From a virus, in the IMG/VR virus record IMGVR_UViG_3300024346_000588, positions 1 to 21,756 of that record: DNA of 21,756 nt. One strand, given 5' to 3'. Under the pieces are notes generated by a model. The model was not told the origin of the DNA and searched no databases. It worked only from the letters and a program-made list of their open reading frames with translations. The position numbers and the translations under genes are program-made. Shown one piece after another: positions 1 to 16,900 of the stretch; the first letter of the stretch is position 1; each line of letters begins with the position of its first letter.

Positions 1-474
1 ATATATTATGGTATAGATTTGGCTAAGTCATTTGACTGGACAGTTATTATAGGACTAGATAGCAATGGTAAGGTTTGCCACTTTGATAGATTTCAAAAGG
101 ATTGGTTACAAACTAAAGAAACAATTAAACAGATACGAAAGCATAAACATATTTTTATTGATAGTACAGGAGTAGGCGATGCAATAGTTGAGGACTTACA
201 AAAGTACTTTAATGATATGACAGGTTTTAAGTACACATCAACCAGTAAGCAGCAACTTATGGAAAGTCTTGCTTCATCAATTCATAAAAAAGAAATAGGA
301 TTCCCTGAAGGTGCAATCAAAGACGAATTAGAAATATTTGAATATTTGTTTACTTCAACAGGGGTAAGGTATTCAGCACCTGCAGGATTCCACGATGACT
401 GTGTAAATGCTTTGGCTTTAGCTAATAAATGCCGGATTGAGAACAGAGGAAGCGGTCAATACCACTTCATTTAA
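1..474 (+). CDS. terL: Terminase large subunit, C-terminal nuclease domain (5' end outside window)
   Basis: This is the end of the packaging motor protein, which pumps DNA into the procapsid and cuts it. The reading frame is open from the first base (codon 1 = ATA), so the gene starts upstream and the ATPase half is missing. What remains looks like the RNase-H-fold nuclease. It has an acidic residue in a strand-turn GIDLAKS (Asp at codon 6), a second in the FIDSTGVGD segment (codon 54), and the HDD near the C-terminus (codons 132-133) followed by the NALALA helix. These three clusters match the metal-binding acidic triad of TerL nucleases. An ATG-less internal start (TTG at 19) is not credible as the real start. 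The chaperone-like gene follows after 31 nt. Family assignment is from recognised motifs; the exact subfamily is unknown. Confidence 0.85.
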   Translation: MYYGIDLAKSFDWTVIIGLDSNGKVCHFDRFQKDWLQTKETIKQIRKHKHIFIDSTGVGDAIVEDLQKYFNDMTGFKYTSTSKQQLMESLASSIHKKEIGFPEGAIKDELEIFEYLFTSTGVRYSAPAGFHDDCVNALALANKCRIENRGSGQYHFI

Positions 475-505
475 TTACATTTTACAAAAACTTATATAAT
501 AGATT

Positions 506-1147
506 ATGACAATTAAGCAATTTCAAGAGTTGTACTATGTGGCTACTTCTGAGGATATGGACTTAGACAAGTCAATTAAAATGGTAGGAATTGTTACAGG
601 CAAAACACCTGAACAAGTAGAAAAAATGTCAATGAGGAAATTTAATATTTTATGTGGTGCAGTACATAACCATTTTAAAATATTTGAAAAGGATTTACTA
701 AAGGGTAAACCTAAAAAGATAGTAAGGGTAGGAAAGCGATTTTATAGAATTAACTATGATGTAACAAAATGTAAATCAAGCACTTATGTAGAGGTATCAA
801 CCTTTAGTACTGATATCATTCAGAACTTACATAAGATAATGGCTTCAATAGTTACACCAGTTAAATTCAAGTGGGGTAGATGGGTAGAACACGAAGAACT
901 AGCAGCGGATTTAGAGCAAATGGATTTTGAGGTTGCATATCACGCAGCGGTTTTTTTTTACACTTTATTCAACGTATCAATGCAAGTTATCCAGCCTTAT
1001 TTGATAAACGAGATGACAAAGAAGGGGATAGCGAAGGAACAAGCAACGGAGATGTTGACGAATTCGCAAAGCATTTTGGATGGCTTTATAATGCCAAGAT
1101 GGTCGCAGACTTCGAAGGAATACCTGTTGAATCGGTTTGGAATTTAA
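506..1147 (+). CDS. Tail assembly chaperone-like protein, zero-frame product (213 aa)
   Basis: The protein resembles a family found in Bacteroidota phages that I interpret as the tail assembly chaperone, which coats the tape measure protein during tail assembly. Recognisable features are a helical N-terminus with MTIKQFQELYYV, a conserved middle with YVEVSTFSTDIIQNLHKIMA (about residues 95-115), and the AYHAAVFF segment at about 144-151. That segment is encoded partly by a run of nine T (951-959), which is a slippery site. The zero frame continues for 62 codons past the slip, with helical, plausible protein sequence ending in NRFGI. The start is ATG 506, with TATAAT at 495-500 just before it. 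Unusually, it lies directly after terminase, far from both the tail tube (9819) and tape measure (5053) genes. The role is inference from family resemblance plus the frameshift architecture. Confidence 0.62.
   Translation: MTIKQFQELYYVATSEDMDLDKSIKMVGIVTGKTPEQVEKMSMRKFNILCGAVHNHFKIFEKDLLKGKPKKIVRVGKRFYRINYDVTKCKSSTYVEVSTFSTDIIQNLHKIMASIVTPVKFKWGRWVEHEELAADLEQMDFEVAYHAAVFFYTLFNVSMQVIQPYLINEMTKKGIAKEQATEMLTNSQSILDGFIMPRWSQTSKEYLLNRFGI
952..958 (+). promoter_or_regulatory. Candidate -1 programmed ribosomal frameshift site (T TTT TTT)
   Basis: Within T9 at 951-959 the zero-frame codons are GTT TTT TTT TAC. Slipping back one base on TTT TTT (953-958) lets both Phe tRNAs re-pair perfectly, and reading resumes with TTA at 958. 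The -1 frame is open from 931 to the TGA at 1222-1224. Polymerase slippage on T9 could give the same product. I saw no obvious strong stem-loop just downstream, and no good Shine-Dalgarno-like enhancer at about 10 nt upstream. Confidence 0.65.
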
Positions 1148-1224
1148 AAGTAATACATTTTTTAAATGATTTGCTTTATTTAAAATTAAAATTAGAGAAT
1201 GAGCATAACAAAAAGTCAAATTGA
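958..1224 (+). CDS. -1 frame extension of the tail chaperone (fusion product about 239 aa)
   Basis: Read in the -1 frame from the slippery run, 88 codons follow before TGA at 1222-1224. Joined to residues 1-151 of the 506 gene, this gives about 239 aa. The segment starts LHFIQRINASYP, has an acidic linker (DKRDDKEGDSEG), and then a helical domain with HFGWLYNAKMVADFEGIPVE, WNLKVIHFLND and a charged end. It looks like genuine globular protein rather than a shadow, and resembles the C-terminal part of long chaperone forms that bind tape measure proteins. It has no ATG before 1099, so independent initiation could only give a fragment of about 41 aa. It overlaps the start of the next gene by 26 nt. 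The frame and sequence are seen directly; the expression mechanism is inferred. Confidence 0.6.
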   Translation, partial: LHFIQRINASYPALFDKRDDKEGDSEGTSNGDVDEFAKHFGWLYNAKMVADFEGIPVESVWNLKVIHFLNDLLYLKLKLENEHNKKSN

Positions 1225-1834
1225 TGCTATTGCTAAAGGTAAGTTAAGCGGAGATATAGAGTTTGGCGATAATAAGGTTATTGATTTAAATGATGTTACA
1301 TTATCATTCTTTGAAAGATATTCAGCTATTTATGTAAAAGCAATCGCTGAAAGCATAAATAATAAAGGAGTAGTTGCAAGTGGTAAAATGCTTAAAGGTG
1401 TAGACCCTGAAGTTTCTAAAGATGGGAATACTTTGAGGATTTATATGGCTAACTATTATGACTTTGTAAATAAAGGTGTAAAGGGAGTTAAAAGTTCTAA
1501 GAATGCACCTAATAGTCCATATCAATATAAGACATATGGAATGAGTGATGCAGGTCGTAAAAGCATTAAACAATATATTCAAAGTGGTAAAGCAAAAATA
1601 AAAGTAGCTACTGAAAAAAGTACAGTTCACGCAGTAGGTAAAGAAAAAAAGAAAGTTAGTTTATTAGATTTAAAAACTGAGGCTTTAGTTTATTTAATTA
1701 AGAAATGGGGTATTAAAACAACTAACTTTTTTGATGAAGCTACAGATAAGGTACAAGAAGAAATGATTAAAGATTTAGGCGAAGTAATGGCACAAACAAT
1801 AGTAATTCAAATAGGAAATCCTAAAAAGAAATGA
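1199..1834 (+). CDS. HK97 gp10-like neck/tail completion protein
   Basis: This 211-aa protein resembles the HK97 gp10 group of head-tail joining (tail completion) proteins, which sit at the head-proximal end of siphovirus tails. The segment YYDFVNKGVKGV (about residues 86-97), followed by a Gly/Ser/Asn-rich loop with SPYQYKTYG, is the best-recognised signature. It follows a helix with GKMLKGV, typical of this family. The C-terminal half has helices including KTEALVYLIKKWGIKTTNFFDEA. The start ATG 1199 lies inside the end of the -1 frame chaperone extension. The stop overlaps the next ATG by four bases (ATGA), implying translational coupling. A Lys-rich C-terminus (NPKKK) ends the protein. It could instead be another minor neck component; family assignment is moderate. 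Confidence 0.6.
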   Translation: MSITKSQIDAIAKGKLSGDIEFGDNKVIDLNDVTLSFFERYSAIYVKAIAESINNKGVVASGKMLKGVDPEVSKDGNTLRIYMANYYDFVNKGVKGVKSSKNAPNSPYQYKTYGMSDAGRKSIKQYIQSGKAKIKVATEKSTVHAVGKEKKKVSLLDLKTEALVYLIKKWGIKTTNFFDEATDKVQEEMIKDLGEVMAQTIVIQIGNPKKK

Positions 1835-2979
1835 GCATAACAATTAATTCAAATCCTCCAAGTGGTTCAACTGCACAGGATGATTTATGGCACGTGGCAA
1901 CAAGTACGGCATCGGCTTCAACAGATATGAAATATATATTTGAGGTTTATGTAGGTGGAAGCAAGAAATTATCAGTAAGACAATTTCCTGAGCCATCTAA
2001 TGGAAAGGGATATTTTAATGCCGGTGCAACTGTACGTAATTCAATAACGTTTAACTGGTTTGAACCATTGGGAACTGCTTATGTTTACCAACCTAATGTA
2101 AGCGGAGAAATGGGTGTACAATATGAAATAAGAGTAGGAGATGAAGTAAACGGAATAGCAGCATTAAATCAAGCATCTGCAACTACACAGGTATTTAATT
2201 ATATTGCTCCTTTATTTAAACGTAGAACAATAGGCATATCAGCTAAATTAAATAAATGGTTAACCAATAGACCAAACTATGCTAATACCAAACTAGGAGA
2301 GAATCTTTATATACCATTTTACACGAATACAAGTTTAAATTTAAAATGCTCTACTTATAACGAATCAAACAACCTTATAGCTACTGCATCAGGAAGCACT
2401 ACTGCAGTTACTAATGGTTTTGTACAAATGAATATAGGCAGCAGCGCAATATCAACTAACTTAGGAATAACAATTAATGATAGTGTTAAATACTATGAAG
2501 TTTGGTTTAATAGCTTTGATAAAATAAGGGTTAACATAGTTTGCAATCCTAAATACGAACCTATTAATATTCACTTTATGAATAGTTGGGGAATGTGGGA
2601 TAGTTTGAGGTTTGATTTAGTAAGCAAGTTGAATTTAAATGTAGAACGTAAATCATACGAGCAAAGAGATTATAGGTTTAACGGTAATTCAGTTGACTAC
2701 AAAAGCGCATCTAATAGATATTATGAAGGTGCTACTAATTATAGCAATAAGGCAACCTATACCTATAAACTAACTGCAGATGCCTTAACGGATGACGAAT
2801 ATACTTGGATGGCAGATATTATAACAAGTCCACAAATATTGATGGAGATAGATGGTTATTTTTATCCAGTTACATTAACAGATAATAACTATGAATTCAG
2901 TAAGAATGTATTTAATAAATTAAAGCCATTGGAACTAACATTTAATATGAATCAAACTAGATACTCACAACTAAGATAA
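1831..2979 (+). CDS. Tail protein, probably distal tail/tail-tip component
   Basis: A 382-aa protein, largely beta-strand in appearance, of a type that sits beside the large tail-tip protein in Bacteroidota phages. Visible parts are an Ala/Ser/Thr-rich N-terminus with an FEVYVGGSKK strand, a middle region rich in Asn and Tyr, and a C-terminal domain with HFMNSWGMWDSLRF, TYKLTADALTDDEYTWMADIIT and a closing strand pair DGYFYPVTLTDNNYEF. The last part looks like a tail-tube-fold domain, as in distal tail proteins. No catalytic motif is visible. It is coupled on both sides: ATGA overlap with the neck gene, and one-base overlap (TAATG) with the 690-aa gene. The specific role (adaptor between tube and tip) is inference from position and size. 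Confidence 0.5.
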   Translation: MSITINSNPPSGSTAQDDLWHVATSTASASTDMKYIFEVYVGGSKKLSVRQFPEPSNGKGYFNAGATVRNSITFNWFEPLGTAYVYQPNVSGEMGVQYEIRVGDEVNGIAALNQASATTQVFNYIAPLFKRRTIGISAKLNKWLTNRPNYANTKLGENLYIPFYTNTSLNLKCSTYNESNNLIATASGSTTAVTNGFVQMNIGSSAISTNLGITINDSVKYYEVWFNSFDKIRVNIVCNPKYEPINIHFMNSWGMWDSLRFDLVSKLNLNVERKSYEQRDYRFNGNSVDYKSASNRYYEGATNYSNKATYTYKLTADALTDDEYTWMADIITSPQILMEIDGYFYPVTLTDNNYEFSKNVFNKLKPLELTFNMNQTRYSQLR

Positions 2980-5051
2980 TGACAAGAATATTCATAGAAA
3001 ACTTTGAGTTAGATATTGATAAGGGATTGAGTAATCAAATAACCTATTCGGTAAGTGATTTAAAAAACATTGATAGTAAGACTACGGCATTTAGTAAGAC
3101 TATTATATTGCCAGGGACTGCTAACAATAACAATTTACTAGGTAATATCTTTGAGTTTAATAATGCAAACTTTACCAATAGTTCATCTCCAAACGTAGGA
3201 TATAACTTTAACGCTAGTAAAACTGCTAAATGTTCTATTGAGGTAGACAGGATGACTGTTATTAAAGGAGTATTTAAATTGCTTGAAATAATTATTGATG
3301 GGAAAAATGTAGAATATGAGTGTAGTGTTATTGGAGAGTTGGGTGGATTCTCAATGAAGCTAGGAGCAAAGAAACTTGAGGAATTAGATTTTAGTGCTTA
3401 CAATCATACGTATAGCTACCAAAATATTGTAGCAAGTTGGGATAACTATCAAGGCGGAGCAGGTTATTATTACCCACATATTGATTATGGTTTATATTCA
3501 ACTAATAAGCACGATTGGGATTATGGAACATTTAGACCGGCATTATTTGTAAAGCAATACCTAGAGAAAATATTTGCAGCAGCAGGTTACACATATGACA
3601 TTACTTGGAGCAATGGTTTTGAGGTTGATAGATTTAAAACATTAATTATTCCTTTTAACAAAAAGAAATTAACTAAATCGGGAACGCAACAAGTAGGATG
3701 TACACCTCAAGCAACTACTGGTTGTATTGACCAAGCTACACCAATGCCTATTCAATGGCAAAACTTTAGCGGAACAAACTGGACTATCAATGGTGGAACT
3801 ACAGGTAGTGTTTTTACTTATACAGGACTTGACCCAACAAATGCAACCTTTAAAGTTGACATAACATTTACTGCATCTACAACTAACACACCAGTAAATA
3901 ATGGCATTTATATTGATACATATAAAAATGGAGTTTTAATACCATCATCGACAAAATTTATTCCTCCATTTTCAGGAACAGTTAATGACTTTTATATTGT
4001 GAATTTAGTTGATGAGCCAGTTGTTACAGGAGATTATTTTGAGGTACAAGCAAGTGCAGCTGATACAGGGATGTGCTATGATAGTTTAATTAATCAAGCA
4101 GGTACGGTAAGCATTAGTTCAGATATTCCAATTACATTAAATGTAAACTTAGGAGATACCGTTTCTTTAAACGATTGTATTCCACCAAACATTTTACAAA
4201 AGGATTTCTTTGCTTCTATATTAAAGTTATTTAATCTTTATGTAGATGAAAATAGGTTTGAAGAAAAGCATTTAATTATTAAGCCATATACAAGTTATTA
4301 TGATGGTACGGTAGAAGACTGGAGTCAAAAGATAGATAGGGCTAAGCCTATAAAAATAAAGCCGATGTCTGAATTAAATAGTCGTTACTATTCTTTTAAA
4401 TATAAAGACGATAGTGATTATTGGAATGAGTTATATAGAAAGAGATACAACGAAGGATATGGAAGCAGAATATTTGATAGTGAATATGAATTCTCAAAAG
4501 AAACGGAAAGCGTAGAGATTATATTTTCTCCAACTGTATTAGTAAGTATAACGGATGAGGATAAAGTTTATAGTACTATTTATAAGTTCACAAACAACTT
4601 AGAGGAAAGAATTGATAGTAATATCAGAATATTACAAGCAAGAAAAATAACAGGTGTTTCAAGTTGGGATTTAAAAGAGGGTGCAACTACTTTAACTACA
4701 TTAACCGTTTATGGTTATGCAGGGCATTTTAACAGTCCTGTTACAGTTGGTAATGATTTAAATTTTGGAGCAACTAGAGAATTATTTTATTCATTAGCAG
4801 GTGGATTATTAAATCAAAATCAATTTAACATTTATTACAGTCCTTATATGGCTGAAATAACAGATAAGAATAGCAGGTTATTAGAATGCTTTGTTAAGCT
4901 AACCGATACGGATATATTTAATTTAAGTTTTGCATCCTTTAAGTATATAGATGGTGGATTATATAGATTAATTAAATTAACAGACTACACACCAGAAGCG
5001 AATGAAACAACAAAAGCGGAATTTTTAAGAGTAATAAACAAAGAATATTAA
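2979..5051 (+). CDS. Large tail-tip/baseplate protein (690 aa)
   Basis: The N-terminus (MTRIFIENFELDID, then SKTTAFSKTIILPGT and NNLLGNIFEFNN) matches a widespread Bacteroidota phage structural family usually found between the distal tail protein and tape measure. The N-terminal 170 residues look tail-tip-like. Residues about 255-400 form an apparent beta-sandwich insertion with repeated Thr/Gly-rich strands and few charged residues. After that comes a hub-like region with NILQKDFFASILKLFNLYV (about 405-425) and EKHLIIKPYTSYYDG, reminiscent of baseplate hub proteins that form the end of the tube. It is probably part of the host-contact end of the tail, with the insertion a candidate carbohydrate-binding or spacer element. 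No hydrolase motif was recognised. The next gene follows after one base. Confidence 0.5.
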   Translation: MTRIFIENFELDIDKGLSNQITYSVSDLKNIDSKTTAFSKTIILPGTANNNNLLGNIFEFNNANFTNSSSPNVGYNFNASKTAKCSIEVDRMTVIKGVFKLLEIIIDGKNVEYECSVIGELGGFSMKLGAKKLEELDFSAYNHTYSYQNIVASWDNYQGGAGYYYPHIDYGLYSTNKHDWDYGTFRPALFVKQYLEKIFAAAGYTYDITWSNGFEVDRFKTLIIPFNKKKLTKSGTQQVGCTPQATTGCIDQATPMPIQWQNFSGTNWTINGGTTGSVFTYTGLDPTNATFKVDITFTASTTNTPVNNGIYIDTYKNGVLIPSSTKFIPPFSGTVNDFYIVNLVDEPVVTGDYFEVQASAADTGMCYDSLINQAGTVSISSDIPITLNVNLGDTVSLNDCIPPNILQKDFFASILKLFNLYVDENRFEEKHLIIKPYTSYYDGTVEDWSQKIDRAKPIKIKPMSELNSRYYSFKYKDDSDYWNELYRKRYNEGYGSRIFDSEYEFSKETESVEIIFSPTVLVSITDEDKVYSTIYKFTNNLEERIDSNIRILQARKITGVSSWDLKEGATTLTTLTVYGYAGHFNSPVTVGNDLNFGATRELFYSLAGGLLNQNQFNIYYSPYMAEITDKNSRLLECFVKLTDTDIFNLSFASFKYIDGGLYRLIKLTDYTPEANETTKAEFLRVINKEY

Positions 5052-5052
5052 G

Positions 5053-6807
5053 ATGGCAGATAAAACAGTTGCGTTAACCATAACTACCGATTCTAAACAA
5101 GCAGAGGCATCGGTAGGCAGTTTTAAAAAACAATTAAGAGAAGCGAATAATGAGTTGTTCAGTATGACTGCACAATTCGGAGAAGCATCTGTTGAGGCAG
5201 TTAATGCAGCAAAGAAAGTAGCCGGTCTTAAAGATGCTATTGGAGATGCAAAAGCATTAGCAGATACATTCAACCCTGATAAAAAGTTTGTTGCTTTAGG
5301 CGGTGCATTACAAGGTGCTACTGCAGGATTTAGTGCTTTGCAAGGAGCAATGGGTTTATTCGGCGATGAGAATAAAGATTTAGAAAAGACTTTGTTAAAA
5401 GTTCAAAGTGCAATGGCTTTGCAACAAGGTATATCCGGATTGTATGAAGCAAGAGATGCCTTTGGTTTATTAAAGGATGGAGCAGTAAGGGCATTCCAAG
5501 CGATTAAAGGGGCAATCGGTGCAACTGGTATAGGTTTGTTAGTTATTGCATTAGGAACGGTTGTTGCCTATTGGGATGACATTAAAGGAGCAGTTAGCGG
5601 AGTAACAGAAGAACAAAAGAAACTTACAAAAGCATCACAAGACAATTTAGCAGCAGAGAAAGAAAAGCTAAATGAAATAGGTAGCCAAGATAACGTATTA
5701 AAGCTACAGGGAAAGAGTGAAAGGGAAATCTTGATGATGAAGAAGAATCAAGTAACTGCAGTTATTAAAGCAACTGAAGCTACTATTTTACAAGATAAAA
5801 TTACTACAAAAGCGCAAGTTGATGCAGCTACAAGAAACCAACAATTACTTAAAGGTTTATTAGATTTAGTATTTCTCCCACAAAAGTTATTATTTGAATA
5901 TTCTTCAAAGGCTATTAATAAACTTATTGAGTTATTAAATAAAATACCAGGAGTTAAAATTGACTTTAAGATTAATGACCAGTTAGCAGATAATGCAACT
6001 GACTATATTTCTAAATTAGTATTTAACCCTGAAGAAATACAAAAGAAAGCAGATGATGCAGCAGAGGCAAATCAAAAAGCAATTAAAAAACTACAAAATG
6101 ATGCAGCAGGTTATCAGTTGTCAGTTAATGCAATAGATAAACAAGCAAAAGATAATGCCTATGTAGATAGGTTAAAAGGATTAGAAAAAACAAAGATTGA
6201 AACAGATACTTTTGAAGCAGCAGCCGCTCAATCAAGGGTACAAATAAGTGCAAACGCAGCGAATGCCATTTTAGAAAAAACTAGAATGACAGAAGAACAA
6301 ACTGCAGCACTAAAAAAGAAATATGCAGATGAAGATGCAAGGGATACTCAAATAGCACAAGATGCAAAAATTAAAGCTACAGTTGACACTTTAAATATTG
6401 TTAGTGATGTATTGGGTAAAGAAAGTGCAGCAGGTAAAGCGGTTGCAGTAGCAGGGGCATTAATTAATACTTACTTAGGTATTTCCGCAGGTGTTAAGTT
6501 AGGATTTCCTGCAGCTATTCCGGCAGTATTGGCTGCTTCTGTTACAGGTTTTAAAGCAGTCAAGAATATTATGGCTACTAAAATACCAGGAGCAGCAAGT
6601 TCAAGTGGTGGAGGTGGTTCAATGTCAGCCCCATCTTTATCAAGTTCAACTGCACCAATAACACCACAAGCGCAAACAACTACTTTATCTACTCAATCTA
6701 TTAATCAAATAGGAGTAGCAAGTTCAAGAGCATACGTATTAGAGACTGATGTAAGCAGTAACCAAGAAAGGTCACAAAGATTGAATAGGGCTGCTAGGAT
6801 AAACTAA
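5053..6807 (+). CDS. Tail tape measure protein
   Basis: This 584-aa protein sets tail length and passes into the host membrane at infection. The N-terminus (residues 1-70) is an Ala/Lys/Glu-rich helical region with KKQLREANNEL. Residues about 80-140 are Gly/Ala-rich helices. A hydrophobic segment at about 155-174 (GATGIGLLVIALGTVVAYW) is a candidate membrane insertion helix. Long coiled-coil-prone stretches follow (about 185-440). A second hydrophobic region lies at about 459-512, and the end is a Ser/Gly-rich linker plus SRAYVLETDVSSNQERSQRL. That C-terminal signature and order are typical of tape measure proteins from this phage group. At about 584 residues the tail would be fairly short. 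No peptidoglycan hydrolase motif was seen. It overlaps no chaperone gene, unlike the usual arrangement. Confidence 0.85.
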   Translation: MADKTVALTITTDSKQAEASVGSFKKQLREANNELFSMTAQFGEASVEAVNAAKKVAGLKDAIGDAKALADTFNPDKKFVALGGALQGATAGFSALQGAMGLFGDENKDLEKTLLKVQSAMALQQGISGLYEARDAFGLLKDGAVRAFQAIKGAIGATGIGLLVIALGTVVAYWDDIKGAVSGVTEEQKKLTKASQDNLAAEKEKLNEIGSQDNVLKLQGKSEREILMMKKNQVTAVIKATEATILQDKITTKAQVDAATRNQQLLKGLLDLVFLPQKLLFEYSSKAINKLIELLNKIPGVKIDFKINDQLADNATDYISKLVFNPEEIQKKADDAAEANQKAIKKLQNDAAGYQLSVNAIDKQAKDNAYVDRLKGLEKTKIETDTFEAAAAQSRVQISANAANAILEKTRMTEEQTAALKKKYADEDARDTQIAQDAKIKATVDTLNIVSDVLGKESAAGKAVAVAGALINTYLGISAGVKLGFPAAIPAVLAASVTGFKAVKNIMATKIPGAASSSGGGGSMSAPSLSSSTAPITPQAQTTTLSTQSINQIGVASSRAYVLETDVSSNQERSQRLNRAARIN

Positions 6808-6837
6808 ACAACTATTTTTAAATTATATATTATAAAT

Positions 6838-8208
6838 ATGAAATTGCCTATTTACGATTTAATTATAAATCAAGATGAGAATAATGATGCTGAGGTTTCT
6901 TTTGTGGCACTTGTTGACAGTCCTGCAATTAAAAAGGACTTTCTTGCGTTTAAAGAAGAAGAATTTATAGACCCAAACAAAGGGGAACAAAAAGACGAGT
7001 TTTTAAGTCGTTGCATTAGTTATGTAATTAACGAGGGCAAAGAAACAGAACAAGCAGTAGCGATATGCAATAGTTTATGGGAGCAGCACTTTGCAGCTTG
7101 TCCAGTAGCTACACAAGATATAAAAATCAACTTAAAAAATAGAGGTACTGCAATTTCAGTTGCTAATTATGGTCCTGCAAACCCATCATTACCTAATGAG
7201 CAATATTGGATAGATAAGGGCAATATATTTGGTGGTAGTCCTGAAGATGCTAAGACAATGACTTGTAATAATTGTGCTGCATTTAATAGGTCAAAAGAAA
7301 TATTAGATTGCATTGCACAAGGATTAGGAAACAATACTGCAGCAGACCCTTGGGCTACTATTGATGCAGGGGATTTAGGATATTGTGAAATATTCGATTT
7401 TAAATGTGCTTCAAGTAGAACCTGTGATGCTTGGGTAGCAAAACAACAAATGGCAGCTAAGAAAGTTTCATTTGATTATGATGATACATTAAGCACAAGT
7501 AAGGGCAAAGATTTAGCTAAAAAAGAATTAGCAGCAGGAAATATAGTTTTTATTATTTCAGCAAGAAGCGATAAAAGTCCAATGTTAGCAGTAGCAAAAG
7601 ATTTAGGTATTCCTGAAAGCAGAGTATTTGCAACAGGTAGCAATAAAGCTAAAGTTGAAAAGGTTAAAGCATTAGGCATAGCAAAGCACTATGATAACAA
7701 TGCTGATGTAATTAAAGAACTTGGCGGTATAGGAGAGAAATTTATGTTAATGGCATTTGCTATACAGTCAGAAAGTGAGCATATTATTACTGGTCCTTTA
7801 ATGATTCCTCAACAATTAATCTACCGTAATTCAGAACAGTTCGGAGAACATTATGTAAAGTTCTCAGTTGATACCATTAAGCAGATAGCTATTAAGTTTA
7901 GCAAGAAGGGATATCAAAAGAACGTTAACCTAATGCACGAAGCAGATTTGCAGGTTGAAGGACTTACAATGTTTGAAAGTTTTATTAGTGATTCTAAAAG
8001 AGGGATTAAACCAATGGAAGCATTTAAAGACTTGCCGGATGGAACTTGGTTTGGTAGTTTTTATGTAGAGAATCCTAAAGTATGGGAGTTAATAAAGAAA
8101 GGAGAAGTTAAAGGATTTAGTGTTGAAGGTATGTTTGATTATGAAACACCAATGAGTGAAGACCAAAAACAATTAGCAGAATTAAGAGAAATTTTAAACA
8201 GTTTTTAA
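6838..8208 (+). CDS. Composite prohead protease (XkdF-like) with inserted Cys-rich and HAD-like modules
   Basis: The 456-aa protein reads as a head-maturation protease split by an insertion. Residues 1-38 (MKLPIYDLIINQDENNDAEV, then SFVALVDSPAIKKDFLAF) match the usual start of XkdF-like (S78_2-type) phage proteases. The protease core resumes at about 301-435, with ITGPLMIPQQLIYR, a His in NLMHEAD (H367) and a Ser in KGFSVEG (S428), the likely catalytic pair. Between them lie three pieces: a short helical motif EFLSRCISYV..AVAICNSLW (54-81); a Cys-rich module with C143, C146, C158, C183, C190 and C196, ending RTCDAW; and a HAD-phosphatase-like module (209-300) with DYDDT (D213, D215, T217), IISARS (S241), SNKAK (K270/K272) and HYDNNAD (D286, D290). 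ATG 6838 follows TATAAA. It sits just upstream of the scaffold-like and capsid genes, as expected. The role of the inserts is unknown. Confidence 0.72.
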   Translation: MKLPIYDLIINQDENNDAEVSFVALVDSPAIKKDFLAFKEEEFIDPNKGEQKDEFLSRCISYVINEGKETEQAVAICNSLWEQHFAACPVATQDIKINLKNRGTAISVANYGPANPSLPNEQYWIDKGNIFGGSPEDAKTMTCNNCAAFNRSKEILDCIAQGLGNNTAADPWATIDAGDLGYCEIFDFKCASSRTCDAWVAKQQMAAKKVSFDYDDTLSTSKGKDLAKKELAAGNIVFIISARSDKSPMLAVAKDLGIPESRVFATGSNKAKVEKVKALGIAKHYDNNADVIKELGGIGEKFMLMAFAIQSESEHIITGPLMIPQQLIYRNSEQFGEHYVKFSVDTIKQIAIKFSKKGYQKNVNLMHEADLQVEGLTMFESFISDSKRGIKPMEAFKDLPDGTWFGSFYVENPKVWELIKKGEVKGFSVEGMFDYETPMSEDQKQLAELREILNSF

Positions 8209-8227
8209 AAATCAATATAATAGTAAT

Positions 8228-8785
8228 ATGGAAGCAAAAGAAATTTTACAAAAAGTAAAGCAATATTTTAACGAATTAGCTGCTGCACCTGAAGTTTTAC
8301 CAATGGCTGAAGCCACCGAATATGAATTAAAAGACGGTGGTAAAGTTATGATTGATAAACTAGAGGTTGGCGGTATTGTTATGATTGACGGAAATGCTGC
8401 ATTGCCAGGAGAAGCTGAATTGGTAGATGGTACTAAAATGACAATAGGAGATAACGGTGTTATTACTGCTATTGAAGTTGTTAGCCCTGAAGCTACTCCA
8501 GTTGAAGAACCTATCGTTGAAGATATGGGAACTAAATTTGCAGCTTTTGAATCATTAACAAATGAGAAATTTGCTAGTTACGAAACTAAATTTGCAGCTT
8601 ACGAAGAAAGATTTTCAGAGTATGAAGCAAAAATGAAAAAAGCAAACAAAGTAATTGATGAACTTTTAAAATTATCAACTTTATTGGTAGAAGCACCAGT
8701 ACAAGCACCTGATAATTCAGTAAGAACTTCAAATGCTTTTAAAGAAGTAGAAGAAAAGAAAACACTAAATATTTTATTTAACTAA
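8228..8785 (+). CDS. Scaffold-like capsid assembly protein
   Basis: A 185-aa acidic protein between protease and capsid genes, the usual place of the scaffold. Residues 1-20 are helical. Residues about 31-84 form a small beta-rich domain made of repeating short strands (YELKDGGKVMIDKLEVGG, then DGNAALPGEAELVDGTKM, DNGVITAIE). A Pro/Glu-rich linker follows (85-100). Residues about 100-155 form a coiled coil containing four near-copies of a K/R-F-x-x-Y/F-E unit: KFAAFE, KFASYE, KFAAYE, RFSEYE. The last 30 residues look flexible. Coiled coil plus flexible ends fits a scaffold that is removed by the upstream protease. The beta domain resembles a recurring element in Bacteroidota phage head genes. 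The start ATG 8228 has TATAAT at 8216-8221. Function is inferred from context and architecture. Confidence 0.6.
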   Translation: MEAKEILQKVKQYFNELAAAPEVLPMAEATEYELKDGGKVMIDKLEVGGIVMIDGNAALPGEAELVDGTKMTIGDNGVITAIEVVSPEATPVEEPIVEDMGTKFAAFESLTNEKFASYETKFAAYEERFSEYEAKMKKANKVIDELLKLSTLLVEAPVQAPDNSVRTSNAFKEVEEKKTLNILFN

Positions 8786-8799
8786 ACAATTATAAAAAA

Positions 8800-9765
8800 A
8801 TGGCATTAGCTTTTAGCGGATTATCCGCATACACTAAACAACTTGTTAAACCACTTTTGACAAGTGCAGTATTTGACGCAAAGACACAACAATTAATCTT
8901 ATCAAGCGGTATCGTTATTCCGAACGTTAAAAGTTCAGTAGCTATTCCTTTGATGGAAACAGATGCAGTATTTGCTGCTCAATCTTGTTCTTTCGATGCT
9001 TCAGGTACAACTACTTTCTCTCAACGTACTATCACAGTAGGTAAGATTAAAGTAGAAGAAAAAATTTGTCCGAAGGATTTAGAGGCGTACTATACCCAAG
9101 AACTTTTAAAATCAGGGTCGACATATGAGGACTTTGGTAATGCTGATTTCCAAAAAGCATTCTTAGATAAAAAGAACGCAAGAATTGCTGCTCAATTAGA
9201 GACTGCAATTTGGCAAGGAGATGCAACAGGTGCAACTGCAAACACAAACAAATTTGACGGTTTACAGAAATTAATTGCTGCAGGTTCTCCAGTTGATGCA
9301 AACGTTTCAGGTTACACAGGAATTAGTGGTTCAGCTATTGCAACTGTTAACGCTTCAAACGTTATCGCTTGTACTGAAGGTATCTACAAAGCTATCCCTG
9401 TTTCTGTATTGAGCAAAGGAGATGTTAAAATCTTCGTTGGTAATGACTGGTATCGTTTATTAATCCTTGCTTACAGAGAGAAAAATATGTTCTCTTACAA
9501 TCCACAAGATTCTCAAGCTGCTTCATTTATCCTACCTGCAACTAACGTTGAAGTAGTAAGTGTAAATGGTTTGAACGGAACTGGTGATGCTTATGCAATC
9601 AGTCTTTCAAATATGGCTTTAGCAGTTGATTTGGTTGACGAAGAAGGTTCATACAAAATGTGGTATTCAGAAGATAACAATGATGTAAGATATCGCGTAG
9701 AATTTAAAATCGGTGTGAACGTTGCGTTTACAAACGAGTGTGTTAAATTCGTAGCAGGAATCTAA
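8800..9765 (+). CDS. Major capsid protein (HK97-fold)
   Basis: This 321-aa protein should be the main shell subunit. It follows the protease and scaffold-like genes and has the look of an HK97-fold capsid protein of Bacteroidota phages. The N-arm contains LSAYTKQLVKPLLTSAVF, followed by strands SSVAIPLMETDA and a long spine-helix region ADFQKAFLDKKNARIAAQLE. A P-domain helix leads into KGDVKIFVGNDWYRLLILAY, and the C-terminal strands are DDVRYRVEF-like (NDVRYRVEFKIG) ending in VKFVAGI. It lacks a long N-terminal delta domain, consistent with a separate scaffold. Its codons differ from neighbours: more TTC, ATC, AAC, GTT and CGT/CGC, whereas the other genes use almost only AGA/AGG for Arg, as expected for a very highly expressed gene. 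ATG 8800 is preceded by TATAAAAAA. A hairpin follows at 9775-9803. Confidence 0.82.
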   Translation: MALAFSGLSAYTKQLVKPLLTSAVFDAKTQQLILSSGIVIPNVKSSVAIPLMETDAVFAAQSCSFDASGTTTFSQRTITVGKIKVEEKICPKDLEAYYTQELLKSGSTYEDFGNADFQKAFLDKKNARIAAQLETAIWQGDATGATANTNKFDGLQKLIAAGSPVDANVSGYTGISGSAIATVNASNVIACTEGIYKAIPVSVLSKGDVKIFVGNDWYRLLILAYREKNMFSYNPQDSQAASFILPATNVEVVSVNGLNGTGDAYAISLSNMALAVDLVDEEGSYKMWYSEDNNDVRYRVEFKIGVNVAFTNECVKFVAGI

Positions 9766-9774
9766 TTTTCTAAC

Positions 9775-9803
9775 ATAGAGAGGTGGTAACCCCATCTCTC
9801 TAT
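9775..9803 (+). terminator. Hairpin between capsid and tail-tube genes (attenuator or weak terminator)
   Basis: A 12-bp stem is formed by ATAGAGAGGTGG (9775-9786) and CCATCTCTCTAT (9792-9803), with one G-T pair (9783/9795) and a 5-nt loop TAACC. The T-tract behind it is weak (TTTAATACTT), so partial termination, an RNA-processing stop or 3'-end protection of capsid mRNA are all possible. It starts 10 nt after the capsid stop and ends 15 nt before the tail-tube ATG. Confidence 0.65.
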
Positions 9804-9818
9804 TTAATACTTATAAAT

Positions 9819-10337
9819 ATGCCTTGTGCAATAGTTAGCGGATATACAATAGACTGTAGAGAGACCATTGGTGGTATAGATGCAGTTTTTTTCGCAGAAT
9901 ATGGAAACGTAACAATAAACGATGCTAGTGGTATCGTTACAGGAATTACAAAATTGACTGGAAAGAAATTTTACAAATTTGAAATACCTACTAAATCTAG
10001 TGCGGTTGCTTCAAGCAATCCAACAGGTTCTATCGAAAACGGTACTTTGTTTTTTGAGCAAACTTTAGATTTCCCTATCAATAAAAGAGATGCTACCACA
10101 AGAAACATTATCACTACCTTAGCTAAAAATAAAGTTGTAGCAGTTACCCTTGATAAAGATGGTACTTACAGAATGTACGGTAAAGGCGCAGGTCTATACT
10201 TAGCAGCAAGTACAGGAACAAGTGGTGCAGCAGCAGCAGATGCAAATGGTTATGTATTGAAATTTGAAGGTTCAGAAAGAGAAGATTTCTTTGAAGTAAC
10301 CAACGCAGTTGGAATAGCTTTGACTACTGCAGGATAG
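9819..10337 (+). CDS. Tail tube (major tail) protein, probable
   Basis: The 172-aa protein starts MPCAIVSGYTIDCRETIGGI and contains DAVFFAEYGNVTI, GIVTGITKLTGKKFYKFEIP, a Ser/Thr/Gly loop, then NGTLFFEQTLDFPINKRDA, helix TTRNIITTLAKNK, and a strand series ending in NGYVLKFEGSEREDFFEV. This order (strand, loop, strand, helix, strand) fits the tail-tube fold, and I recognise the family as a common Bacteroidota phage structural protein. The start is ATG 9819, preceded by TATAAA (9812-9817). An upstream in-frame GTG at 9783 lies inside the hairpin stem and would add residues unlike the family, so it is rejected. It sits between a hairpin and a strong terminator, as expected for a high-copy virion protein. 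Another virion role (capsid decoration) cannot be excluded. Confidence 0.6.
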   Translation: MPCAIVSGYTIDCRETIGGIDAVFFAEYGNVTINDASGIVTGITKLTGKKFYKFEIPTKSSAVASSNPTGSIENGTLFFEQTLDFPINKRDATTRNIITTLAKNKVVAVTLDKDGTYRMYGKGAGLYLAASTGTSGAAAADANGYVLKFEGSEREDFFEVTNAVGIALTTAG

Positions 10338-10360
10338 AGTTTTTTAATTTTTAATTTATG

Positions 10361-10389
10361 CCCCGACCGATGAAAGTCGGGGTTTTTTT
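10361..10389 (+). terminator. Strong intrinsic terminator after the tail-tube gene
   Basis: A perfect 7-bp GC-rich stem, CCCCGAC (10361-10367) with GTCGGGG (10376-10382), has an 8-nt loop CGATGAAA and is followed immediately by seven T (10383-10389). It is the most GC-rich structure in an AT-rich window. It lies 23 nt after the tail-tube stop and ends two bases before the ATG of the next gene, so downstream head and fibre genes need read-through or another promoter. Confidence 0.88.
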
Positions 10390-10391
10390 CT

Positions 10392-10760
10392 ATGATTAAT
10401 TTAACAAAAGGACTTACACAGACTATTTATTTCACGGCTACTGAGAAGGCTACCATTAGCAACCCTTACTTTTTATTTGTGTTTATCCACAGAGTAACTG
10501 GCGATGTTGTTAAGTTAATGGCTACTAATCAGAGTATTACTGGTAGATACGATAGTTTTGCATTTACAGTTAATAACTATTTCAATTTAAAAGAAGAAGG
10601 ATTTTGGGGTTATACAATACATCAAAAAGTAAGTTCAAGTGATTTAACAGTTAGTGGATTAGTGTTAGAAGAAGGGTATATGTTTTTAAATCCTGCTACA
10701 CCTTTTGAACCTACTAAATACGAAGAACAAAATAATAATTTCGTTACTTATGGATTATAA
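10392..10760 (+). CDS. Conserved phage protein of unknown function (122 aa)
   Basis: I recognise this as a small family often seen near the portal or tail genes of Bacteroidota phages, but no function is known to me. The N-terminus MINLTKGLTQTIYFTATEKA is typical, followed by a hydrophobic strand PYFLFVFIHRVTGDVVKL, a variable loop and GFWGYTIHQKVSS. The overall look is a small all-beta protein, perhaps a virion accessory or assembly factor. ATG 10392 is just two bases after the T-tract of a strong terminator, so its leader region is the terminator hairpin itself and it has no TATAAW element. Its 3' end overlaps the portal start by 11 nt. No cysteines, signal peptide or membrane segment are seen. 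Confidence 0.6.
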   Translation: MINLTKGLTQTIYFTATEKATISNPYFLFVFIHRVTGDVVKLMATNQSITGRYDSFAFTVNNYFNLKEEGFWGYTIHQKVSSSDLTVSGLVLEEGYMFLNPATPFEPTKYEEQNNNFVTYGL

Positions 10761-12732
10761 AAATATTATTACAATAAAATTCGCACAAGCGGAGCAACCA
10801 CGATTTGAAGAAAAGAGGGCAAAGGGGTATGTTGAATTTGGTGGCAATAATAACTATCCTGAATATTTAATCGGTTTATTTAATGAAAGTCCAAAACACG
10901 GTGCTATCATTAAGAGCAAGACTAATTATATTTTTGGTCAAGGATGGGATGGTATTGAACAGAAGGCAAACACTAAGGGAGAAACGTGGAATCAAATTAC
11001 TAAAAAATGTATTTTAGATGATGAACTTTTTGGAGGTTATTATCTACAAGTTATATATAATTTATTAGGTCAGATTAAGGATGTGTATCATCTTGAGTAT
11101 CATAAAGTTAGGACTAATAAAGAGCAAAACGAATTTCAAGTTAAAAACGATTGGGCAGATAATAAAGAGAAAGCAAGATTATATCCTGCTTTTAATATTC
11201 AAGACCCAGTAGCAAGTCAGGTTTTATTTGTTAAACAATACAATCCTAAGTCTGATATCTATCCTTTACCTAATTACTTTCAGGGTTTAAATTACATTGA
11301 GAGTGATGTACAGGTAAGCAGACATATTTTAGGTAATGCTAAAGATGGTTTTGTTGCAACTACTTTAATCAATTTAAATGGTGGCGAACCGGCAGAGGAG
11401 GCGAAGGAAGCAGTTGAAAGAGGAATTAAAAAGAAATTTACAGGTAGTGAGGGAGATAGGGTTGTTATTATGTTTAACAAGTCAAAAGATAATAGTGCTG
11501 AAATATTGCCTTTATCTTCTACAATGTTAACTAAGGAAGATTTTACAAACGTAAATAATTTAATTCAGCAAGAAATATTCGCTTGTCATCAAGTTACTTC
11601 TCCAAGTTTATTTGGTATTAAAACTGAGGGACAACTTGGTGGTTCAACAGAGATTAGAGATGCTTATAAGATATTTGCTAACACTTATGTAAACGAAAGA
11701 CAACAAGCGATTGAAGAAGTATTTAATCAATTATTTAGTTATGTAGGTATTAAGGGAGATTATGAATTAATACCAGTAGAGCCATTAAGTTTTGAATTTA
11801 GCGAAAGTGTAATGGCTGCTAATATGACAAGAGAAGAAATTAGAGAGAAATTAGGTTTAGCTTCTGAGGTTACTGCAGTTAATCCTGCAGTTAATCCAAC
11901 AGTTAATCCAACTGACCAACCTATTGCTGCTTCAAATGATTCTATAAAGAATCTTACCGGCAGACAATACCAAAATGTAATGAGGATTGTTAGGCAGTTT
12001 ACTAATGGTAAACTTTCTAAAGAACAAGCTGCATTAATGTTAAAGAATGGTTTTGCTTTTACGGATAGTGATGTAAATACTTTCTTAGGTTTAGATACTG
12101 AGACATTTTCTAGCGATGATAAAGAAATGGAGTTGGTAGAAATGTTTGAAAAGTTTAGTGATAATTTAGATGATTATGAGGTGTTAAGTGAAAAATCAGC
12201 AAGAGAATTCAATCACTTTGCAGAGATTAAGCAGCTAAGCCAATTAGAAGCCGATATTTTGGGTTATATTAAGAAGGATAAGAGAATCAATAGCGAAGGA
12301 CTTGCACAGGTTTTAAAGCAAGATGTGAAGGTTGTAGAGGCATCTTTACAAAATCTAGTTGATAATAAGATATTAGATGTTAAAGAGGTTAAGGTTGGTA
12401 AAGATGTAGTTATTGAAAGAGTTAGAACAAACGTAGAAGCGGATGCTCCTAAGCCTAAAAACTTATTATCTATTGCTTATACTTATGCCTGGAGAAGCAT
12501 CGTACCAAGTTCAGAAAGAAATACACCTGCTCATCCATCTCGTTTATTTTGCGTTAAAATGATGGAACTTGCAAAGACTAAATTATGGTCAAGAGCAAGA
12601 ATAGAACAAATGAGTGCTGCATTAGGTTATTCGGTATTTGATAGAGTAGGTGGATTTTGGAATAACGATGGAATAATAGAAACGCAATGCAGACACGAAT
12701 GGAAGGCATTAATAATTCAAAAGAAAAAATAA
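10750..12732 (+). CDS. Portal protein with C-terminal winged-helix-like and CRHxW head-morphogenesis domain
   Basis: A 660-aa protein. Residues 1-370 fit a phage portal, the dodecameric ring through which DNA enters: YVEFGGNNNYPEYLIGLFNE (28-47), GAIIKSKTNYIFGQGW, and the QEIFACHQVTSPSLFGIKTE / STEIRDAYKIFANTYVNERQ segments at about 272-320. A (A/T)VNP triple repeat follows (376-387). Residues about 398-445 carry NLTGRQYQNVMRIVRQFTNG. Residues about 500-560 look like a winged helix (LEADILGYIKK..SEGLAQVLKQ..NLVDNKIL). Residues 577-660 resemble the C-terminal domain of MuF-type minor head proteins: SRLFCVKMM (C601), GYSVFDRVGGFWN, CRHEW (C647, H649, W651). I chose ATG 10750; an upstream TTG at 10705 is inside the previous gene. 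It is longer than usual portals because of the C-terminal parts. Confidence 0.8.
   Translation: MDYKNIITIKFAQAEQPRFEEKRAKGYVEFGGNNNYPEYLIGLFNESPKHGAIIKSKTNYIFGQGWDGIEQKANTKGETWNQITKKCILDDELFGGYYLQVIYNLLGQIKDVYHLEYHKVRTNKEQNEFQVKNDWADNKEKARLYPAFNIQDPVASQVLFVKQYNPKSDIYPLPNYFQGLNYIESDVQVSRHILGNAKDGFVATTLINLNGGEPAEEAKEAVERGIKKKFTGSEGDRVVIMFNKSKDNSAEILPLSSTMLTKEDFTNVNNLIQQEIFACHQVTSPSLFGIKTEGQLGGSTEIRDAYKIFANTYVNERQQAIEEVFNQLFSYVGIKGDYELIPVEPLSFEFSESVMAANMTREEIREKLGLASEVTAVNPAVNPTVNPTDQPIAASNDSIKNLTGRQYQNVMRIVRQFTNGKLSKEQAALMLKNGFAFTDSDVNTFLGLDTETFSSDDKEMELVEMFEKFSDNLDDYEVLSEKSAREFNHFAEIKQLSQLEADILGYIKKDKRINSEGLAQVLKQDVKVVEASLQNLVDNKILDVKEVKVGKDVVIERVRTNVEADAPKPKNLLSIAYTYAWRSIVPSSERNTPAHPSRLFCVKMMELAKTKLWSRARIEQMSAALGYSVFDRVGGFWNNDGIIETQCRHEWKALIIQKKK
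11875..11910 (+). repeat. 12-bp tandem repeat, three units, in the portal gene
   Basis: Three in-frame units of (G/A)CAGTTAATCC(T/A) encode AVNP-AVNP-TVNP at portal residues 376-387. They lie at the junction between the portal core and the C-terminal domains and probably act as a flexible or extended linker. Copy number could change by slippage without breaking the frame. Confidence 0.8.
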
Positions 12733-13562: not shown

Positions 13563-13994
13563 ATGACCTACAACCAGTTAATAACAACAATAACAAGCCT
13601 GCTGCAAAATCACGAAATGATAAAAACGGCAAAGTACGCAACACCGAAAGAGTGGCTACTAAGAGATGAACAACCAGTTTATCCGATTGCTTGTTTTTCA
13701 ATTAATTCAGGTAGTTTAAATTTAGGTAGAGAACAGATATACAATGTTCAATTTTTCTTTTTAGATAAAAGTGGTAAGGAAGCTGAATACGAGAATGATG
13801 TAATCAGCGACCAAGTACAGATAGCTTCTGATATTTTAAGTTTAATGCGTACAGGAAGGAATAGTTATTCAATAGATGAAAATATTACTTTCAATGCGAT
13901 ATCGGATAAGTACGAAGATTATTTGGCAGGGGTGGAGTTAACAATTAATATTTCAACACAAAATCAATTTACTGGATGCGACGTGCCATTATAA
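13563..13994 (+). CDS. Neck/tail-terminator-like protein (143 aa)
   Basis: The sequence MTYNQLITTITSLLQNHEMI, then KYATPKEWLLRDEQPVYPIA and YNVQFFFLDKSGKEAEYEND, matches a small Bacteroidota phage family located between the connector and tail genes. The alpha/beta pattern (N-terminal helix, strands, acidic helix VISDQVQIASDILSLM, C-terminal strand pair) fits a tail terminator or neck ring protein, but I cannot name the exact role. The start ATG 13563 is 44 nt after the connector stop and agrees with the family N-terminus. A different-frame ATG at 13523 lies in the gap. The stop overlaps the fibre gene start by 19 nt, so the fibre is probably translationally coupled. Confidence 0.58.
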   Translation: MTYNQLITTITSLLQNHEMIKTAKYATPKEWLLRDEQPVYPIACFSINSGSLNLGREQIYNVQFFFLDKSGKEAEYENDVISDQVQIASDILSLMRTGRNSYSIDENITFNAISDKYEDYLAGVELTINISTQNQFTGCDVPL

Positions 13995-16900
13995 CATTAT
14001 TAGTTTTATTATCTTTTGGATTAAAAGCGCAGGTTTACCAAGCTATGCCACAAGCAGGATATGGTCCTGTTAAACGTATGTTATTTGATAGTGTATTAAC
14101 TATTCCGTTGAATATCAATCAATTAAGAAATATAACAGGTGGTAGGGATGCCGGTCAAATAAGATATAATGTTAGTGATAGTGGTTTATATGTATTTACA
14201 GGATATACTTGGATTAAAGCTAACTTAGATAGTGTTAATTTATCGAATAGAATAAATGGTAAATTAAACGTTACAGATACTGCTTATATGCTTAGTTGGT
14301 ATATGAGAAAGACCGATACTTTAAGTTTATCAAATAGGATTAATTTAAGGGTAAAATATACAGATACTGCAGCGATGTTAGACCCATATTTGAGAAAGCT
14401 AGATACTGCTAGTTTATCAGATAGAATTAATAAAAAACAAAACGCAATAACATTAACTACTAATTTTAAAAGTGGTGCTTCAACTTTAGTAGGTGCAACA
14501 TTAAATATTCCTAAGTATAGCGATACATTACAAGATAATTATGTGCCATATGTAGGTGCGATTAAGGATGTAGATTTAGGAGCATATAAATTAAATGCCA
14601 ATACTTTACAATCTGATTATTTATTACAAGTTAAAAATAGTCCAACTTCGATTGCTCCAACAAAAGGCTATACTGCAATTACAGGTATGGAAAGTGGGTT
14701 AGTATTATATTCAAGTTGGATGACAGGAAATACAACTTATACTCAACAGAACTTTATAAATTATGCTAATACTAATTTACAAAACAATACAAGGCAATAT
14801 AATTTACCAGTAAGAAATGGAACTTTAGCATTAGTAGAGGACACGGTTAATCTATCCAATAGAATTAATTTAAAGGCAGATAAAGCAACTACATTAACGA
14901 TTAATGGAGTAGGATATGATTTAAGTACTAATCGTACTTGGACTATACCTACTGTTGATACAACATCTTTATCTAATAGATTAAATTTAAAACTAAATAT
15001 CAGCGATACGGCAGCAATGCTTAGTCCTTATCTTAGGAAAGCAGATACAAGTTCATTATCTAATAGGATTAATTTAAAATTAAATAGTGCAGATACATTA
15101 AGTTTATCAAATAGGATTAATCTAAAGGCTGATAAATCAACTACACTATCTATTAATGGAACAAGCTATGATTTAAGTGCAAATAGAAGTTGGACTATAC
15201 CTACTATCGATACTACATCATTATCCAATAGGATTAATTTAAAAGTTAACATAAGTGATACTGCAGCAATGCTTAGTCCTTATTTGAGAAAAGTAGACAC
15301 AACTAATGCTTTTTTAACTGCAGTATCTCAACCTAATGACTCAACATTATCTTTTGTAAAGGGAAGTACATTAACAAGCTATACAATAAGAGCAAGTACA
15401 CAAGGTAGTGCGGTTAAGTTAATTACAAACGTATATAATAATAGTGGTGCAACCATATTAAAGGGTAGTGTAGTTTATATTAATGGCGCACATTCAAGTA
15501 ACTTACCTACTATTGCTCTAGCTATTGCAAATAATGAATCAACATCTGCATTTACTTATGGATTAGTAGAAAGCAACATACCTAATAATTCTGCAGGAAC
15601 AGTAGTACAAAATGGTGTTTTAACTGGATTAAATTTACCTACTTCAAGTTATACCGATGGGCAAACTTTATATTTAAGTCCTACAGTTGCAGGTGGATAT
15701 ACTACTACAAAAGTTATTGCACCAAATCATTATGTAGCTATTGGAACGGTTATAAGAGCGCATCCAAATTTTGGAACTATCCAGGTGGCAATTAGAAATG
15801 GATTTCAGCTAGATGAATTGAGTGATGTATTAATTGCTGCAGTCCCTTTAGATAGTACAGTTTTACAATTTAGTAGAGTAGATAGTTTATGGCACGATGT
15901 AAGTATTACAAATGCTATTGGTTCAAAATATATAAAGCCAACTGATACTACTTCGCTTTCTAATAGAATTAATGCAAAAGCGGATGCACTAAGCGGAACT
16001 ACAAACACAGTACCTAAATTTACTTCATCAACTACAATAGGTAACAGTAATATTAAAGATAACGGAAATGCGGTTACAATAAATGCAACTGCAGGAAGTT
16101 TTGGTGCTTTGCAAGTAGGTAGCTACAATGGTAATATTTTAATGAATACTACCAATGCAAATGGAGGTTTAATATTTCAAAATACATCATCATCTAATAA
16201 GTTATGGGATTTTTCTTCTGATAACAATGATTTAGTTTTTAATGAATCAAACGTTGCTCCAGTAATGAAATTAAAAGCAGGTGGTAATGTAGTAATATCA
16301 AATCTTTCAGGTACAGGTACTCGTATGGTCGTGGCAGATGCAAATGGTGTATTATCTACACAAGCAATAAGTAGTGATACAACTTCATTAAGTAACCGAA
16401 TTAATTTAAAATTAAATATTAGTGATACTGCTTCTATGCTTTCTCCTTATTTACGTAAAGTTGATACGGCTAGTTTAAGCAATAGAATTAATACTAAGCA
16501 AGGAACAATAACATTAACAACTACAGGCACAAGTGGAGCAGCAACCTTTAGTTCTAACACATTAAACATTCCTCAGTATCAAGCTGCAGGAACTTATGTT
16601 ACAAGTGTTACAGGAACTTCTCCAATAGTATCAAGCGGTGGTACTACACCTGCTATTTCTATACCTGCTGCAACAAGTTCAGTAAATGGATATTTAAGTT
16701 CTACTGATTGGAGTACTTTTAATGGTAAACAAAATGCTATTAATGGAACAGGCTTTGTAAAGGCTAGTGGCACTACAATTAGTTATGATAATAGTACTTA
16801 TTATCTAGCATCTAATCCAAATGGATATACAAGTAATACAGGAACGGTTACAAGTGTAGCAACTGGCTTAGGATTAAGTGGTGGTACAATTACAACATCA

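Follow-up and report, generated by a model that had tools for sequence, protein, structure and literature searches.

Does the run of nine T at positions 951 to 959 lead the gene that contains it to encode a second, longer protein, and what would the two proteins be? The question is raised by a 21.8-kb IMG/VR virus record (the window, 21,756 nucleotides, analysed at its full length), whose genes include terminase, tape measure, protease, capsid-like, portal, tail-fibre and endolysin genes. Taken as a whole, the explanation that we consider likely is that one phage gene gives two proteins by a slip at the T run, and that these are a probable tail assembly chaperone pair. Frameshifts in the tail chaperone genes of dsDNA phages were reportedly treated by Xu, Hendrix, and Duda in 2004.

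The locus and its relatives

The 0-frame ORF (506 to 1,147, plus strand) encodes 213 residues and would give the short, default product, with residues 1-148 as the shared N-terminal part. The T run on the same strand is read GTT TTT TTT TAC in the 0-frame and TTT TTT TTA in the -1 frame, in the slip phase that the first-pass annotation had described. By translation, the -1 segment (952 to 1,224, plus strand) consists of FF and 88 codons up to the TGA at 1,222-1,224, and constitutes the C-terminal part of a fused product of 239 aa; its first ATG is at 1,099, so both the open frame and the missing earlier start were correctly noted. The same bases, 960 to 1,147 on the plus strand, carry the 62-codon C-terminal tail of the 0-frame and the -1 segment. 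Upstream of the run, the -1 frame meets a stop within a few codons (most often 7) and is therefore reachable only at the run. If the -1 segment is not counted, 1,148-1,198 is an empty gap; the next gene (1,199 to 1,834, plus strand) starts with an ATG inside the end of the segment, with an overlap of 26 nt. Directly upstream of the ORF lies the C-terminus of the terminase large subunit (1 to 474, plus strand; Terminase_6C, E 1.7e-6), a neighbour also found in the relative L111 and in phage P12024S, and three genes downstream is the tape-measure protein (5,053 to 6,807, plus strand; phrog_24676, E 2e-10), with three ORFs in between.

The search with the 0-frame protein and a separate search with the -1 segment returned the same set of contigs, and all full-length relatives from these first searches kept the two frames and had their T9 in the same phase. 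The window proteins had no match in INPHARED (tblastn), so IMG/VR profiles and a fold search supplied the relatives. The IMG/VR profile searches, with patterns mostly outside the run, gave relatives at 32-50% identity, all with at least T9; single scans yielded 270 and 320 matching stretches, and the 0-frame protein is conserved down to 32-34% identity. The family is undescribed in Pfam or NCBIfam. The fold search in BFVD with the 0-frame model led to the cultured Nonlabens phage P12024S, whose gene 38 has T9 at 23,578-23,586 and a -1 frame that continues from the run into gene 39; genes 40 and 41 of P12024L show the same T9 arrangement. In a profile comparison (E 5e-6) the LFFY of P12024S was aligned with the VFFY of the window, and among cultured phages the portal protein of the window matches only P12024S and P12024L. 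Genes 38 and 39 of P12024S (L194, 23,136-23,830, JQ823122) appear to be one frameshifted gene, and likewise genes 40 and 41 of P12024L. The Nonlabens phages share with the window the place after the terminase, the same T9, and a -1 frame running into the annotated downstream gene, but they differ in sequence (about 20% identity), in their short 0-frame tail (27 codons), and in being annotated as two separate genes without a frameshift. Scans starting from P12024S added more than 100 marine contigs, all with at least T9.

Two scans of GTDB genomes found no relative, and consequently there is no link to a host or prophage by sequence; the phage of the window is uncultured and of Bacteroidota type. 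Flavobacterium phage 6H (L195, 10,352-10,927, minus strand) gave a weak fold match (E 0.1), with a possible C-terminal segment downstream in another frame and no comparable long T run at the gene end.

Conservation of the run and coding in both frames

Among 186 distinct relatives the run was T9 in 181 and T10 in 5, it was shorter in none, and the phase was kept; their distinct -1 segments form 17 clusters at 50% identity and 38 at 60%. The codons xTT TTT TTT were exact in 185/186, and in the same genes TTC makes up 27% of Phe codons and GTT only 35% of Val codons. With this codon usage the chance of the run is about 0.18 per lineage and about 3e-13 over the 17 lineages at 50% identity, the independence of lineages being an approximation. 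In a single relative (L318) the second Phe codon is TTC, and an extra TTT there keeps T10; in L333 the Val codon is GTA, and again an extra TTT gives T10. Codon 0, before the two Phe, is V, L, I, or F, and codon 3 is Y, C, W, or F. In the window, 951-959 is the sole run of at least nine A or T, with 4.3 expected from dinucleotide shuffles, which indicates that such runs are depleted elsewhere in it; of the 64 runs of at least nine T in 363 kb, 61 are this site, and others are nearly absent. Every retrieved relative has at least T9 and all except L111 keep both frames. Since the relatives keep the run and the frames, T9 is neither chance nor sequencing error, and judging by this comparison the run is maintained by selection at one spot and in one phase. 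Conservation in relatives had been proposed beforehand as a check of the run, and its loss together with the -1 segment as grounds for giving up the idea; the relatives retain both, L111 as a fused ORF. In L111 (847-1,587), a further relative, a T10 joins the frames into one ORF of 246 aa, and the alternative frames close within about 10 codons. The earlier statement that T8 or T10 would merge the frames holds for T10, and T7 would do so too, but T8 leads to the +1 frame, which is closed within about 16 codons.

The use of both frames was assessed by dN/dS among close relatives, each change being counted by what it does in the two frames, with a bootstrap over codons and pairs that are non-independent. 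In the group of the window the overlap gave 0.31 (0.15-0.51) for the 0-frame and 0.54 (0.30-1.00) for the -1 frame, and in group 3 the values were 0.31 and 0.26, respectively. As controls, the -1 frame in the single-coded N-terminus gave 0.86-1.7 and the 0-frame beyond its own stop 0.85-1.7; considering that unused frames stay around 1, the test tells used from unused frames. For the linker, which makes up the first half of the -1 segment, no significant constraint was seen in the group of the window (0.89, 0.52-2.45). Codon log-odds per codon in the overlap (34 sequences) were -0.13 for the 0-frame, +0.10 for the -1 frame, and -0.77 for the +1 frame, and third-position variability in the subgroup of the window fell from 57% to 28% at the entry of the overlap. 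By these measures, dN/dS below 1 and codon usage, both frames downstream of the run are real coding sequence, and the locus joins a conserved slip run to two coding frames, the combination by which a two-product programmed frameshift is recognized. A conserved predicted -1 product, with the shift at the run and absent from annotation, bears out the remark that gene calling misses the long form.

The AlphaFold2 model of the 0-frame protein is confident (pLDDT 82, pTM 0.75) and, like the measures above, speaks for coding; it places the slip point within a long helix that spans 141-172, after which come two further helices. In the model of the -1 segment alone (pLDDT 73), a helix leads into a disordered linker rich in Gly, Ser, and Asp, and the end is helical and confidently predicted.

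Ribosome or RNA polymerase

It may be asked whether a slip is needed at all. The -1 segment could be a separate gene with an internal start and no frameshift extension, given the ATG at 1,099 and an annotated gene 39 of P12024S that begins at ATG. Against this, conservation of the -1 frame sets in at the run (FFL..N..[YF]..LF), 16 of 61 segments have no Met in residues 20-60, fusion forms exist (L111 and A0A6J7WJY4), and the selected T run would be left without explanation, so that we regard an internal start as very improbable. A sequencing error or a decayed gene has a still smaller, practically negligible probability, the relatives having already refuted it: homopolymers are error-prone, and the near-identical contigs L174 (1-20, T10, at a contig end) and L180 (T9) do differ at the run, by a variant or an assembly error, but T9 recurs across assemblies that are independent of each other and in the finished genomes of two isolates, and both frames are under purifying selection.

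The agent of the slip is a closer matter. The first-pass annotation had spoken of a -1 frameshift; a shift at the T run stands, and slippage of RNA polymerase is a serious alternative that it did not consider. A stimulatory 3′ structure was sought and the mean fold z-scores were -0.3/-0.06 (36 sequences) and -0.2/-0.44 (45 sequences), like the flanks, so that, in folding models free of pseudoknots, the 3′ element of stimulated ribosomal -1 frameshifting (a stem-loop or pseudoknot at 5-9 nt) was not seen. The mark of transcriptional slippage, a conserved homopolymer of at least nine A or T at the frame change, is present in 186/186. With nine or more T and no conserved RNA structure on the 3′ side, the site suits slippage by RNA polymerase just as it suits slippage by the ribosome. 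If the polymerase acts, alone or with the ribosome, mRNA with ten U would be read normally into the -1 frame and mRNA with eight would give short by-products; we put this slightly above an even chance. It is favoured by a run of at least nine in every relative, by the near absence of such runs elsewhere, by the lack of conserved 3′ structure, by the efficiency of slippage in vivo at nine A or T (PMC5009743), a length at which selection against runs also begins in many genomes (PMC1088944), and by L111, which at T10 directly encodes the long form. On the other hand, the ribosome could use the same T run as a heptamer, the literature search gave no report of polymerase slippage for tail chaperones, and the scarcity of other runs may stem from replication slippage. 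Unstimulated, lambda-like -1 slippage of the ribosome alone on T_TTT_TTT, with the two extra T explained by protein constraint (a hydrophobic residue before FF and an aromatic one after), falls somewhat short of even. As a heptamer, T_TTT_TTT does allow -1 slippage; tail chaperone sites of the lambda type work at low efficiency and may do without stimulators (PMC5009743), and amino-acid constraint could account for T1 and T9 of the run. Yet T_TTT_TTC should slip too, and TTC occurs in only 1/186 (L318) with the run still T10 by its extra TTT; the GTA of L333 is offset in the same manner; and no run is below nine, the length of efficient slippage by bacterial RNA polymerase (PMC1088944, PMC5009743). 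Our lean to the polymerase is only slight because the amino-acid constraint could also fix the flanking T positions. In the literature search, tail chaperones and transcriptional slippage were not found joined in any paper.

The genes known to slip in this way offer a comparison. The Thermus thermophilus dnaX with its A9 and the Shigella genes with T or A runs (PMC1088944, PMC5009743) have the same nine-base homopolymer inside the gene and products that diverge after it. The likeness to dnaX extends to the polarity in L111, where the long form is encoded directly, the 0-frame tail of the relatives is gone, and slippage would yield a truncated form. Unlike dnaX and the Shigella genes, both downstream frames are here long and conserved in most members, and the polymerase is only one of two candidate agents of the slip.

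Probable function and evolution of the two products

The best reading of the product pair of 506-1,147 is a tail assembly chaperone, which we hold with fair confidence on account of weak N-terminal profile matches, the design with two products, and the tape measure in the tail module. Phage_TAC_7 (PF10109), the P2-type gpE/gpE+E′ family, was the only profile matching repeatedly, though weakly, at residues 14-49: the window scored 15.1 bits with the 0-frame protein and 17.3 with the fused one, the highest among members scored singly was 20.0 (L062), and the curated cut-off of Pfam is 25; the best E among members was 1e-5 (fused) and 1e-4 (0-frame). PHROG 166 "tail protein" matched in 27/48 members (best E 1e-4). 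In solved structures (PDB) no significant match was obtained by sequence or by fold, and the overall fold is thus unmatched there. The profile search of the fused protein suggested earlier points weakly to the proposed tail chaperones and stays under the cut-off.

The frameshifts of lambda gpG/gpGT and of other dsDNA phage tail chaperones have been reviewed (PMC5009743). Products of the G/GT type are characterized by binding to tape-measure and tail-tube proteins in a fixed ratio and by their absence from virions. Like lambda, the locus has an N-terminal part common to its two forms, a -1 shift, a long form with an extra C-terminal domain, and the phage tail context. It departs from lambda in the place of the shift, which comes only after about 150 codons, and in the short form, whose own conserved tail is dual-coded with the -1 domain; the gene also lies beside the terminase, in the same module and in a different order from the arrangement of major tail protein, gene, and tape measure, and not directly ahead of the latter. 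The 0-frame stop follows the slip by 186 nt, and known tail chaperone sets stop on average 26-36 nt after it (PMC10885494). The lambda-type architecture claimed at first is accordingly seen in the conserved -1 product at the run, and is departed from in the long dual-coded 0-frame tail and the terminase-side position, in both of which the gene differs from the G/GT rule.

We propose that the two products would have about 150 residues in common and different C-terminal ends. The majority of messages or ribosomes would remain in the 0-frame, yielding the 213-aa form and its helical C-terminal tail. In a minority, a slip of one base at the run would lead to the 239-aa form, in which a flexible Gly/Ser/Asp-rich linker and a helical C-terminal domain (FGWxYNAKMV...FLNDLxYLK) would stand in place of that tail. 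Coating of the tape measure would fall to the short form, and recruitment of tail-tube subunits to the long form as the rarer of the two; the weak profile match, the genome module, and the layout with two products suggest these roles.

The length of the 0-frame tail in the family varies from 18 to 86 codons (27 in P12024S), and the -1 domain is kept throughout, with better codon usage. A0A6J7WJY4 (BFVD) is a single-chain relative of 243 aa. The -1 domain looks older and the 0-frame tail a later addition by overprinting. More tentatively, at a little under even confidence, a large clade of Bacteroidota phages may rely on slippage of RNA polymerase at an invariant T9, and not on the ribosome, to fix the ratio of its tail chaperones, and would have put the bases behind the slip site to use twice, for a -1 domain of old origin and a 0-frame domain overprinted later, as two alternative C-termini on one chaperone. 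This would be a case of a short frameshift isoform gaining its own domain by overprinting, and the cultured P12024S and P12024L would provide a clean test of a tail-assembly ratio set at the level of transcription. Annotation has missed the predicted long product of a large family, as well as the link between the two genes in P12024S and P12024L, and the conserved T9 may be used as a marker for annotating the gene in other Bacteroidota phages.

Some other features of the window were also observed. The order in 1-12,732 is terminase, tail genes, tape measure, protease, capsid-like, and portal, with the tail module between the terminase and the head genes. The product of 6,838-8,208 has a C-terminal XkdF-like protease domain (Peptidase_S78_2) and ahead of it a HAD-type phosphatase-like stretch (FDYDDTLSTS...), an unusual pairing. 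The tail-fibre-like protein of 1554 aa (13,976-18,640) contains many near-repeats of SLSNRINLKLNISDTAAMLSPYLRK.
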